From a virus, in IMG/VR virus record IMGVR_UViG_3300042691_018666, positions 1-31,374 of that record: a stretch of DNA of 31,374 bases. One strand, 5' to 3'. Positions within the stretch are counted from its first letter, which is position 1. Each line of letters starts with the position of its first letter. This document shows positions 20,292 through 31,228 of the stretch, one piece after another. The translations under genes and the position numbers were made by a program. Under the pieces are notes generated by a model. That model made no database searches, was not told the origin of the DNA, and saw nothing but the letters and a program-made list of their open reading frames with translations.

Positions 20292-21878
20292 GTGATTAAT
20301 TTAAATAAAATAGTAATTGTTGGCGGTGGATCTGCTGGCTGGATGTCTGCAGCAACAATGATAAAAGCCTTTCCAGAGAAAGAAATTGTTGTAATTGAGT
20401 CTCCTGATTATCCAATAATAGGTGTTGGTGAGTCAACCCTTGGAGGCATTACAGGATGGGCTAATTGGATCGGTATTGATGAGAAAGATTTTATGCCAGC
20501 AACAGATGCCGTATATAAGATGTCCATTAAGTTTACAGATTTTTATAAGAAGGATTCTGGTGGATTTCATTATCCATTTGGAAATCCATTTTTAGAAGGA
20601 ACTCTTGATGGGTTAACTGACTGGTATTTTAAAAAAGTTAAATTACCAGATCTAGATGTTGCTGATTACGCTAGAACCTTTTTTCCTGCTTTAACTTTAG
20701 CAGAACAAAATAAACTATCTTGGAACAAGTCTGGAAAATTAGGAAACTTTAATTTTAAAAAAGATGTTGCATACCACTTCGATGCTACCAAGTTTGGTCA
20801 ATGGCTAAAGAATAACTATTGTATTCCTCGTGGAGTAACAGTAATTCCCCAAACAGTAGAAACAGTAAATACAAATGAAGAAGGTATTGAATCCTTAGTA
20901 TTGACAGATGGAACACTTATTACATCAGATCTATTTATTGACTGTACAGGATTTAAATCTATGCTACTTGAAGGAGCATTAGAAGAACCTTGGAATGACC
21001 AAAGCCACATGCTTCCAAATAATAGCGCATGGGCTACACGTATACCCTATACAGATAAAGAAAAAGAAATGGAACCTTACACTAACTGTACTGCAATTGG
21101 AAACGGATGGGTATGGAATATTCCATCTTGGGAACGAATTGGAACAGGATATGTGTTTAGCGATAAATATATTTCTAAAGAAGATGCATTAAAGGAGTTT
21201 AAGGAGCATCTTCGCTCAGACAAAATGACTGTTTATAATCCAAATCGTGACGTAGAGGCGCTAGAGTACAAGTATATTAAGTTTAGAGTAGGTATACACG
21301 AACGTACATTTGTAAAGAATGTTGTTGCTATTGGATTTGCTGCTGGATTTATTGAGCCTTTAGAATCTAATGGATTATTTACAGTTCATGAATTCTTAGA
21401 TAAATTGGTAAAAACTTTACAGCGTAAAACAATAACTCAGTGGGACAGAGATGCTTATAACATGAATACAAGCAGACAGTATCTTACATTTAGAGAATTT
21501 GTTGCACAGCATTATGCACTTTCTAATAGAACTGATACACAATATTGGCGTGATATAACCGAAAAAACTTATAAGCCAGATGTTCCATTATTAGAGCCAT
21601 CAATGATTCCAGGATTTCAAGATCTAGCAGATATTCAGTTTAATACACAAAAACACAACGGTTACTCTGGAATTCACTGTATTGCAACTGGAATGAATTA
21701 TATGCCAGTAAATTCTATAGATATTGAAAGATGGATTCATAGAGATGGAATCGATTACTATTATTTTGTTGAAAAAACATTGAAGCAGTGGGAAATTAAT
21801 AGAAAAAAATGGCAAGAAGAAGCAGATTCCTCTCCAACCATGTATCAATGGCTCAAAGAAAATATACACAATAAATAG
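20292..21878 (+). CDS. Flavin-dependent tryptophan-halogenase-like protein
   Basis: The 528-residue product belongs to the FADH2-dependent halogenase family (PrnA/RebH type). It has the FAD-binding GGGSAGW (11-17), the Lys80 that forms the halogenating lysine adduct in PrnA (Lys79), the signature WVWNIP (273-278), and EPLES (355-359), whose Glu358-Ser359 match Glu357-Ser358 of RebH. Length is as expected. The substrate cannot be read from the sequence; it may be tryptophan, another indole or a peptide. No flavin reductase is nearby, so reduced flavin would come from the host. The start is GTG with AGGTGG upstream. Halogenase genes of this family, next to DUF6065-like genes, occur in other phages; their role is unknown. 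Confidence 0.92.
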   Translation: MINLNKIVIVGGGSAGWMSAATMIKAFPEKEIVVIESPDYPIIGVGESTLGGITGWANWIGIDEKDFMPATDAVYKMSIKFTDFYKKDSGGFHYPFGNPFLEGTLDGLTDWYFKKVKLPDLDVADYARTFFPALTLAEQNKLSWNKSGKLGNFNFKKDVAYHFDATKFGQWLKNNYCIPRGVTVIPQTVETVNTNEEGIESLVLTDGTLITSDLFIDCTGFKSMLLEGALEEPWNDQSHMLPNNSAWATRIPYTDKEKEMEPYTNCTAIGNGWVWNIPSWERIGTGYVFSDKYISKEDALKEFKEHLRSDKMTVYNPNRDVEALEYKYIKFRVGIHERTFVKNVVAIGFAAGFIEPLESNGLFTVHEFLDKLVKTLQRKTITQWDRDAYNMNTSRQYLTFREFVAQHYALSNRTDTQYWRDITEKTYKPDVPLLEPSMIPGFQDLADIQFNTQKHNGYSGIHCIATGMNYMPVNSIDIERWIHRDGIDYYYFVEKTLKQWEINRKKWQEEADSSPTMYQWLKENIHNK

Positions 21879-24512: not shown

Positions 24513-24546
24513 TTATCTGACCTTTCTTGTTAATCTTTATACTGGA

Positions 24547-24569
24547 AGTCTATCAGAGGGGACTGACAA
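24547..24569 (-). promoter_or_regulatory. Early promoter, TTTGTCAG type, leftward
   Basis: On the minus strand AATTTGTCAG is followed, 11 bases after TTGTCA, by TAGACT preceded by TG. A CRP-like site lies upstream at 24607-24622 and a CGACACG at 24588-24594. Confidence 0.55.
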
Positions 24570-24606
24570 ATTAGCCGTTTTTTCGGGCGTGTCGGGAAAG
24601 TATTTT

Positions 24607-24622
24607 TGTGATTTAGGTCACG
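24607..24622. promoter_or_regulatory. CRP/GlxR-like operator 1
   Basis: TGTGATTTAGGTCACG fits TGTGA-N6-TCACA with one mismatch. Its centre is 62.5 bases from the first base of the leftward -10 at 24547-24552. It overlaps the end of the 38-residue gene. Confidence 0.45.
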
Positions 24623-24734: not shown

Positions 24735-24783
24735 GTTAGTGACCTTTCGTTTAGTAGTTAGATTTTAACTATCTAATACTGCA

Positions 24784-24812
24784 AGTATAACAGAGAAATG
24801 TCAAAAAGTCAA
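24784..24812 (-). promoter_or_regulatory. Leftward early promoter
   Basis: On the minus strand TTGACT, a 17-base spacer and TATACT. The 17-base string TTGACTTTTTGACATTT is identical in the rightward promoter at 26281. Confidence 0.7.
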
Positions 24813-24833
24813 GACGACACGCCGTATAGTTAA

Positions 24834-24849
24834 TGTGATCTCCACCACA
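24834..24849. promoter_or_regulatory. CRP/GlxR-like operator 2
   Basis: TGTGATCTCCACCACA, one mismatch. Its centre is 52.5 bases from the start of the leftward -10 at 24784-24789. Confidence 0.45.
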
Positions 24850-24853
24850 TAGG

Positions 24854-24877
24854 TTATACACAGGGGGTTGTGGATAA
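24854..24877. promoter_or_regulatory. Inverted DnaA-box pair
   Basis: TTATACACA (24854-24862, one mismatch) and TGTGGATAA (24869-24877, the reverse complement of the perfect box TTATCCACA). Confidence 0.6.
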
Positions 24878-24949
24878 CTTTTTTTCGACCCGTTTTTGTC
24901 AAGGCGACACGCTGAGAATAGTGGTCATTCTTTTCTTTGACCATTCAAA

Positions 24950-24981
24950 TGTGACCCTTATCACTTGTGATACACCTCACA
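24950..24981. promoter_or_regulatory. Tandem CRP/GlxR-like operators 3 and 4
   Basis: TGTGACCCTTATCACT (24950-24965, one mismatch) directly abuts TGTGATACACCTCACA (24966-24981, perfect). Their centres are 74.5 and 58.5 bases before the -10 at 25032. Confidence 0.6.
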
Positions 24982-25014
24982 ATGTCCGTTTTGATACCAT
25001 TTTGGACTTGCGAT

Positions 25015-25037
25015 TTGTCAGACCCCCATGCTACACT
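25015..25037 (+). promoter_or_regulatory. Rightward early promoter, TTTGTCAG type
   Basis: ATTTGTCAG, then TGCTACACT; the hexamer TACACT (25032-25037) starts 11 bases after TTGTCA. It serves the micro-gene operon 25092-26163. Confidence 0.6.
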
Positions 25038-25091
25038 TACAGTATAAAGAAACACAGGCGGTAAAGAAATCCGCTAAGAAAGGTGGTCACT

Positions 25092-26174: not shown

Positions 26175-26205
26175 TTTTTCAGGATTGATCCCCTGAAAAA
26201 TTTTT
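26175..26205 (+). terminator. Intrinsic terminator
   Basis: TTTTTCAGG and CCTGAAAAA form a 9-bp stem with an inner GGAT/ATCC, followed by TTTTT. It ends the 25092-26163 operon. Confidence 0.9.
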
Positions 26206-26215
26206 CGACAAAAAG

Positions 26216-26236
26216 TTATCCACAGGCTTATCCACA
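26216..26236 (+). promoter_or_regulatory. Two perfect DnaA boxes, 12 bases apart
   Basis: TTATCCACA at 26216-26224 and 26228-26236, in the same direction and about one helical turn apart. Confidence 0.7.
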
Positions 26237-26243
26237 GGGTAGA

Positions 26244-26259
26244 TGTGGTGTAACTCACA
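26244..26259. promoter_or_regulatory. CRP/GlxR-like operator 5
   Basis: TGTGGTGTAACTCACA, one mismatch, centred 52.5 bases before the -10 at 26304. A CGACACG follows at 26262. Confidence 0.45.
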
Positions 26260-26280
26260 CACGACACGCCGTGACAGGAT

Positions 26281-26309
26281 TTGACTTTTTGACATTTTCT
26301 TGCTATACT
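26281..26309 (+). promoter_or_regulatory. Rightward early promoter
   Basis: TTGACT (26281), 17 bases, TATACT (26304-26309) preceded by TGC. The -35 region is identical over 17 bases to the leftward promoter at 24784. Confidence 0.7.
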
Positions 26310-26346
26310 TCTAGTATAACAATTAAATAAGGACAGACAAGGCAAT

Positions 26347-26397
26347 GAGCCTTAGCAAATAAATGTGACTAGAATCACAGCGAGCCTAAGCAAATAA
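26347..26397 (+). repeat. Direct repeat flanking a CRP-like site
   Basis: GAGCCTTAGCAAATAA (26347-26362) and GAGCCTAAGCAAATAA (26382-26397) differ at one base and lie on either side of operator 6. Confidence 0.65.
26364..26379. promoter_or_regulatory. CRP/GlxR-like operator 6
   Basis: TGTGACTAGAATCACA is a perfect match, centred 53.5 bases before the -10 at 26425. It is also downstream of the promoter at 26281. Confidence 0.6.
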
Positions 26398-26407
26398 GTG
26401 CCCCAAT

Positions 26408-26430
26408 TTGTCAGTGGTCCGTGATAGGAT
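26408..26430 (+). promoter_or_regulatory. Rightward early promoter, TTTGTCAG type
   Basis: AATTTGTCAG, then TGATAGGAT with the hexamer 11 bases after TTGTCA. Confidence 0.55.
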
Positions 26431-27133: not shown

Positions 27134-27163
27134 TTATCCACAGGTCAGACTAAGTTATCCACA
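27134..27163 (+). promoter_or_regulatory. Two perfect DnaA boxes, 21 bases apart
   Basis: TTATCCACA at 27134-27142 and 27155-27163, same direction, two helical turns apart. Confidence 0.7.
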
Positions 27164-27175
27164 GGTCATATTTTT

Positions 27176-27207
27176 TGTGAGGTTTATCACATGGCTTGAG
27201 CGTCTCA
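27176..27207. promoter_or_regulatory. CRP/GlxR-like operator 7 with TGAGCGTCTCA
   Basis: TGTGAGGTTTATCACA (27176-27191) is perfect. TGAGCGTCTCA follows five bases later (27197-27207), the same arrangement as at 29639. Confidence 0.6.
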
Positions 27208-27239
27208 CTATTTAAGATTACTTGCTAGTAACTATACTT

Positions 27240-27262
27240 TTGTCAGTAGCCCATGATAGGAT
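27240..27262 (+). promoter_or_regulatory. Rightward early promoter, TTTGTCAG type
   Basis: TTTTGTCAG, then TGATAGGAT, hexamer 11 bases after TTGTCA. A separate TATACT lies at 27233-27238. Confidence 0.55.
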
Positions 27263-28827: not shown

Positions 28828-29550
28828 ATGACTAAACTACTCAGAAGCAAAGATAGGAAAGTAACTAATGCCGTATCCCCTAATGGAAAAACCCCAACAA
28901 TTGCCAACACTTTCGGATTACCCGCAGGAAAGGCTTATTCATGTCCTGGAGCGACTAGCGTATGCGAGAGTGTTTGTTATGCTGGCAAATTGGAAAAAGT
29001 ATTCCCAACAGTAAAGAAAAACCTATTACACAATTGGGCATTGCTCAAAGACGCAGATCTTGAGACTATGCAAAGTCTACTATCAGAAATGATAGATGAG
29101 TTTATTGCAGATTGTGAAAAGCGTAATGCTAAAATGCTATTCCGCATTCACTGGGACGGAGATTTCTTTAACGATACCTATACACAGGCGTGGAAGAATG
29201 TCATCCTTAATAATACAAAGATTCAATTCTGGGTTTATACCCGTGTAAAATCAGCCGCCCTTATTCTTAAGGACATTGATAATCTTTCTTTATACTATTC
29301 TACAGATAGCGAAAACAAAGATACAGGAATTGATCTAAAAACTCAGCATGGTATTCGTCTTGCATACCTTGCTAAAAATTTCGCAATTGGACAGGCAGAC
29401 ATGAAAGCCTTGACTAATAAGCCTGGCGCTAAGTGTCCTGAAAACCTTAAGGCTATTCCCTTGATTAGTACTAAGGGTTCGGCTTGCGTTTCTTGCTCAT
29501 TGTGTGTATACTCAAAGAGCGACATAGTATTCTCAGCAACAAAGAAATGA
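28828..29550 (+). CDS. GP88-like phage protein
   Basis: The 240-residue product matches the actinophage GP88 (gene product 88) family by eye: SPNGKTPTIANTFGLPAGKA, CPGATSVCESVCYAG (38-52 or so), FRIHWDGDFF, and a C-terminal CVSCSLCVYS. Two cysteine groups (C-x6-C-x3-C and C-x2-C-x2-C) suggest a metal site, possibly an iron-sulfur cluster. Its biochemical role is not known. It shares a leaderless transcript with the 47-residue basic gene and is followed by membrane micropeptide 3 after six bases. Confidence 0.82.
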   Translation: MTKLLRSKDRKVTNAVSPNGKTPTIANTFGLPAGKAYSCPGATSVCESVCYAGKLEKVFPTVKKNLLHNWALLKDADLETMQSLLSEMIDEFIADCEKRNAKMLFRIHWDGDFFNDTYTQAWKNVILNNTKIQFWVYTRVKSAALILKDIDNLSLYYSTDSENKDTGIDLKTQHGIRLAYLAKNFAIGQADMKALTNKPGAKCPENLKAIPLISTKGSACVSCSLCVYSKSDIVFSATKK

Positions 29551-29638: not shown

Positions 29639-29670
29639 TGTGACTCAACTCACACCCCCTGAGCGTCTCA
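29639..29670. promoter_or_regulatory. CRP/GlxR-like operator 8 with TGAGCGTCTCA
   Basis: TGTGACTCAACTCACA (29639-29654) is perfect; TGAGCGTCTCA follows five bases later (29660-29670), exactly as at 27176. Confidence 0.6.
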
Positions 29671-29695
29671 AATAGTGAGAAATCTCAGAAAAATG

Positions 29696-29724
29696 TTGAT
29701 AATGTCAGTAGGAAATGTTACACT
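29696..29724 (+). promoter_or_regulatory. Rightward early promoter
   Basis: TTGATA (29696), 17 bases, and TGTTACACT (hexamer 29719-29724); ATGTCAG stands 11 bases before the hexamer. Confidence 0.6.
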
Positions 29725-31143: not shown

Positions 31144-31159
31144 TGTGTTTAAGATCACA
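31144..31159. promoter_or_regulatory. CRP/GlxR-like operator 9
   Basis: TGTGTTTAAGATCACA, one mismatch, centred 71.5 bases before the -10 at 31223. AATGTCCGATTTG follows, nearly as after operator 4. Confidence 0.45.
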
Positions 31160-31205
31160 AGAAAAATGTCCGATTTGCCCTATGTCTAACTATACCGATT
31201 TGCAT

Positions 31206-31228
31206 TTGTCAGCCCTTTTGTGTATACT
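31206..31228 (+). promoter_or_regulatory. Promoter of the DUF932-like gene
   Basis: TTGCAT, 17 bases and TATACT (31223-31228); ATTTGTCAG stands 11 bases before the hexamer. Confidence 0.65.

Follow-up and report, generated by a model that had tools for sequence, protein, structure and literature searches.

The intergenic region at positions 24735–25082 of an uncultivated phage genome probably acts, in our reading, as a divergent promoter hub under positive control by host cAMP-CRP/GlxR. The window that we analysed, i.e. the whole 31,374-nucleotide stretch of DNA, is a 31.4 kb record with no DNA similarity to isolate phages in a nucleotide search. The hub would head a 15–20-kb block of non-structural, probably early, genes of a ~100-kb actinophage; the block is called early because of its gene content (short ORFs without assignment, GP88, DUF932 and HNH in the relative G004) and its position. 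Host cAMP-CRP/GlxR most likely binds TGTGA-N6-TCACA sites and would activate RNA polymerase from upstream, in a class-I-like manner, on both strands: a leftward promoter of the TTGACT/TATACT type would be served by one site, and a rightward promoter of the TTTGTCAG type by an abutting pair. Since most of the block's other promoters repeat this layout, the block may act as a phage-borne CRP regulon, and infection would thereby read host cAMP.

The virus seems to be a large uncultivated actinophage of freshwater actinobacteria. It encodes a GP88-family protein (28828–29550) with homologues in mycobacteriophages and Streptomyces phages at <60% identity. We fetched 80 close relatives, partly out of 100–114 kb records, in which gene calls are simple ORF picks. 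WhiB is encoded by 12 of the 15 large relatives, and we assign the virus to actinophages because the WhiB profile matched Corynebacterium alone among the control genomes. A tryptophan halogenase gene is located at 20292–21878 of the window. Searching cellular genomes for gp88 gave two loci only, one of them in a bin labelled cyanobacterium, so the host call rests on WhiB, on the low GC content and on one small bin of actinobacterial origin that contains a contig related to the virus; together these suggest a low-GC, Nanopelagicales-like freshwater actinobacterium.

The ORFs flanking the gap are short and have no family assignment. The rightward ORF starts at GTG 25083 or ATG 25092, giving a gap of 348–357 bases; the 357 bases of the preliminary description hold for the ATG start, and the GTG start gives 348. 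In good agreement with the divergent control region proposed there, two opposed promoters are present, each with conserved CRP-type sites upstream, and in the ~100-kb relatives the gap lies near the split point of leftward and rightward transcription. The leftward promoter, TTGACT-N17-TATACT (24784–24812, minus strand), belongs to a family seen again at 26281–26309 and in relatives. Its CRP/GlxR-type site (TGTGGTGGAGATCACA read leftward, 24834–24849, minus strand) has one mismatch and is centred 52.5 bp upstream of the −10; several relatives carry the perfect version TGTGATGTCCGTCACA. The rightward promoter, TTTGTCAG-N7-TGCTACACT (25014–25037, plus strand), consists of a box at 25014–25021 and the −10 TACACT at 25032–25037. 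The box was invariant in the 14 contexts of its family, the selection of which permitted variation at three box positions. Upstream on the plus strand, two CRP-type sites abut to form a 32-base block: a distal member with one mismatch (24950–24965), 74.5 bp from the −10, and a perfect proximal member (TGTGATACACCTCACA, 24966–24981), 58.5 bp from it.

The gap further contains a DnaA-box-like inverted pair (24854–24877) made of TTATACACA (24854–24862, plus strand, one off consensus) and TTATCCACA (24869–24877, minus strand), as well as two plus-strand copies of the CGACACGCC motif, GTCAAGACGACACGC (24808–24822, CGACACG at 24815) and GTCAAGGCGACACGC (24898–24912, CGACACG at 24905), both inside a longer repeat GTCAAG[A/G]CGACACGC. 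Also present is a TGGTCA/TGACCA inverted repeat (24922–24943; TGGTCA at 24922, TGACCA at 24938), by itself a common hexamer with 26 occurrences in the window. Every motif that the preliminary description listed for 24735–25091 is present, and in numbers far above chance: a first-order Markov model predicts 0.025 CRP-like, 0.013 DnaA-like and 0.024 CGACACG motifs for the gap, against 3, 2 and 2 observed, and none of these counts was attained in 2000 simulated gaps. The density, which had been described as unusual, is not unique, as the gaps at 26.0–26.46 kb and 27.08–27.30 kb hold the same kinds of motif. The right-hand part of the window has about seven similarly built gaps, the flagged gap among them; self-comparison matches the latter to 26205–26317 and 24534–24571.

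Nine TGTGA-N6-TCACA sites with at most one mismatch occur in the window, each upstream of a promoter, at distances to the −10 of 52.5, 52.5, 53.5, 62.5, 71.5, 72.5 and 73.5 bp, plus 74.5/58.5 for the abutting pair. Outside the flagged gap, these are found at a second leftward promoter (24547–24622, minus strand; box 24570–24563, −10 from 24552, site 24607–24622 at 62.5 bp) and, on the plus strand, in five further places. The cassette at 26216–26309 combines two DnaA boxes, a CRP-type site (26244–26259), CGACACG at 26262 and a TTGACT promoter at 52.5 bp. Perfect sites precede box promoters at 26364–26430 (53.5 bp), at 27134–27262 (site 27176–27191, together with two DnaA boxes; 73.5 bp) and at 29639–29724 (promoter AATGTCAG; 72.5 bp). 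The last, with one mismatch, lies with its box promoter at 31144–31228 (71.5 bp), upstream of a gene whose product starts MAHELESQ and whose counterpart in G004 is likely the DUF932 match of the G004 block. In two gaps (27200 and 29660), and also in relatives, TGAGCGTCTCA lies downstream of the CRP-type site. The CGACACGCC motif is found in the window at 24588, 24815, 24905, 26262, 28608, 28623 and 31108, and CGACACG has 526 distinct contexts in related loci; the GACAC inside the motif is the WhiA core. A 34-nt repeat (CCTGAGCA...AACTGCTCA) follows genes in five copies (27089, 29943, 30451, 30534 and 31057), which are likely terminator hairpins.

We aligned the region upstream of the same rightward gene in nine relatives. 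The preliminary description had held that its reading would be refuted if close relatives with the same gene order lacked the motifs; the CRP block and the promoters are kept, and some relatives have lost the DnaA pair or the TGGTCA/TGACCA repeat. The TTTGTCAG promoter is retained in all nine, L051 having it as ATGTCAG. Most also keep the abutting CRP-type pair, frequently in the form of better palindromes (ATGATGTGTATCACA-TGTGATGAATCTCACA in L017), and little of it is left in L051. Among relatives that keep the rightward promoter, the DnaA pair is missing in L024 and L075 and altered in L015, L017, L019 and L051. The TGGTCA/TGACCA repeat is kept in L044, L012, L021 and L075 only, the CGACACG copies come and go, and the leftward-gene side of the gap has a different sequence in L012, L021, L075, L015, L019 and L017.

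This pattern bears on the suggestion of a DnaA-dependent replication origin in the gap, which we consider very improbable. The two inverted DnaA-like boxes in a divergent gap would fit an origin, as would the shift in strand skew near the gap in large relatives. However, the boxes are lost in L024 and L075 and differ in L015, L017, L019 and L051, DnaA box pairs occur in other gaps too, and the skew tracks gene direction and is thus no discriminator. Moreover, a denser cluster of DnaA boxes, with 2–5 copies of TTATCCACA, lies 7.1–9.1 kb past gp88 in eight of the nine large relatives (G001, G003, G004 and G006–G010; no boxes were seen 7–9 kb past gp88 in G005). The surrounding sequence is AT-rich and largely noncoding and has a ATATCAGTAA-like stretch, and in most cases CTCCACT repeats precede the boxes; the position of the cluster, carried over from the relatives, falls past the end of the window. 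This conserved cluster is a better candidate replication origin than the gap.

The CRP-type sites, in turn, show the specificity and placement expected of the proposed promoter hub. In 81 loci, a spacer of 6 gives 144 distinct 16-mers and any other spacer from 2 to 12 gives 0–3, with T|A favoured at the centre. Perfect sites number 4–9 per phage genome, and in nine relatives of 100–114 kb all 54 of 54 lie within −8 to +12 kb of gp88. The distances from CRP site to box fall into classes of 42–43, 51–53, 61–63 and 72–73 bp, so that neighbouring classes differ by one turn of the helix; over 42 promoter families, the Rayleigh test gives p of about 1e-12 in the range 38–76 bp. This phasing was repeated in a second set of 128 contexts in 50 families (p about 1e-7), which was chosen by DNA pattern and not by gp88 similarity, with sequences from the first 80 loci removed and 34–64 bp allowed. 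Both p-values are approximate, given that promoters share ancestry and families were collapsed with a simple similarity rule. Promoters of the TTGACT type follow the same phasing distances, with sites 41.5, 52.5 or 62.5 bp from their −10 (32 families).

Two features of the spacing speak against host CRP as activator. If the −10 starts at −12, the preferred spacing puts the site centre near −64.5; the class I optimum of E. coli CRP is −61.5, about 3 bp away. Furthermore, in the flagged pair the proximal site (58.5 bp) deviates from the phasing by roughly half a turn, and falls into a minor class of the pattern-selected set, with 47–48 bp from site to box. Conservation inside single promoter families gives weak evidence: half-sites exceed the centre at 27.2 kb (1.65 versus 1.2 bits) and at 25.0 kb (1.0 versus 0.52), and in the 26.4 kb family conservation is higher in the flanks than in the half-sites. 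On another virus contig (L303:1026–1663), twelve perfect TGTGA-N6-TCACA palindromes occur in about 640 bp, many as TGTGAAAT..TTCACA; this array is perhaps a different operator.

The number of sites could also mean that they are mainly decoys that titrate host CRP, or that the block is kept repressed by CRP until the cAMP level drops. With 4–9 perfect sites, a phage genome has far more of them than a host-family genome, and phage T1 offers a precedent for host cAMP-CRP control of phage promoters by repression (PMC6737242). Titration, however, requires no fixed promoter distance, yet the spacings are helically phased, and the sites lie 52–73 bp upstream of the −10, which is typical of activation and not of promoter occlusion. 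We consider both variants quite unlikely. The preliminary description had also suggested a switch; in the sense of a bistable lysis–lysogeny decision, such a region would be expected to have a divergent repressor gene, with operators that overlap both promoters. Limited Pfam scans gave no repressor: no HTH family matched the 37 block ORFs of G004 at E 0.01, with the remaining ORFs partly scanned.

The core of the rightward promoter type is itself distinctive. In TTTGTCAG-N7-TGnTAnnnT, the gap from box to −10 is a rigid 10 nt in 377 of 472 cases (shuffled-box controls gave 71–135 matches in all), and in 121 of 128 contexts of the second set. We rejected TTTGTCAG as an ordinary −35 on account of this rigid 10-nt gap and the 11 bp from TTGTCA to the −10. 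A similar box is found in the spacer of some TTGACT promoters, so the two promoter types may grade into each other. No phage sigma factor (Sigma70_r4) was found in 15 large relatives. The layout resembles T4 middle promoters, in which a MotA box near −30 takes the place of the −35: in both, a conserved box lies at a fixed distance from the −10 and no standard-spaced −35 is evident. The box differs, being TTTGTCAG at about −30 to −23 here. That such a conserved box has no known binder counts against our reading.

What, then, binds the CRP-type sites? TGTGA-N6-TCACA is the consensus of GlxR in Corynebacterium glutamicum, where mutating a native site to match the consensus raised promoter activity (PMC7999487). 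In a hand tally of 148 Actinomycetes genomes in all, those >2.2 Mb gave 517 perfect sites and the reversed control gave 34; for those up to 1.5 Mb the figures were 2 and 6. The likely host family is that of the small actinobacterial bin, and 17 of its 21 genomes have a CRP gene. We fetched 12 of these CRP loci; all except L114 gave a full-length CRP ORF, and all 11 ORFs carry the standard recognition helix ASRETVNKALADF. The 21 genomes hold only 2 perfect sites, one of them on a phage contig, and one-mismatch sites are at control level. This near-absence, which weighs against host CRP as the binder, may reflect a small CRP regulon, a different preference or a host from another group; if the family is the right one, the phage sites would be stronger than any other in the cell.

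The scarcity of host sites would also fit a dimeric activator encoded by the phage itself, so far unrecognised, that binds the TGTGA-N6-TCACA sites with a specificity like that of CRP. Many small proteins of the block match no Pfam family, and the TTTGTCAG promoter core looks phage-specific, with 0 matches in the 21 host-family genomes (the control likewise gave 0). We nevertheless regard this as unlikely. In 15 relatives, no cNMP-binding or Crp-type HTH match rose above the cut-off (one match, in G013, fell below it), and the motif is the actinobacterial GlxR consensus, enriched across the class. Related phages without the TTTGTCAG promoter (L103, L297 and L311) carry sites too. The phage contigs L297, L300 and L311, with 48–49% GC and gp88 at about 50% identity, have 6–8 perfect CRP-type sites and no TTTGTCAG promoter. 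Binding by host CRP thus remains the reading that we favour.

The proposed hub shares with E. coli class I CRP promoters an activator site upstream of the −35 at positions one helical turn apart; it differs in a main spacing about 3 bp longer. The likeness to the promoters of the C. glutamicum GlxR/CRP regulon lies in the consensus and in sites near promoters (PMC7999487), whereas here the sites are phage-borne, stand at most promoters of one block and are joined at many by the phage-specific TTTGTCAG core. As in phage T1, phage genes would be under host CRP, but in T1 a few promoters are repressed, whereas the array described here is phased, takes in many promoters and recurs throughout a large group of phages. 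We found no report of a comparable phage CRP-site array in the literature searched, which covered few subscription journals.

It is conceivable, although we would put it at somewhat below an even chance, that in a large and widespread group of freshwater actinophages the entire early block has come under host cAMP-CRP through near-perfect phased sites almost lacking on the host chromosome, so that infection reads carbon status, with the TTTGTCAG element as a second input. The analysis also points to a separate, conserved candidate origin. Phased perfect CRP palindromes together with TTTGTCAG-N10-TAnnnT offer a signature for the regulatory block in uncultivated phages. If our reading is true, a group of phages that we know from metagenomes only would have a defined promoter set, and infection of abundant freshwater actinobacteria would be tied to the cAMP and carbon state of the host.
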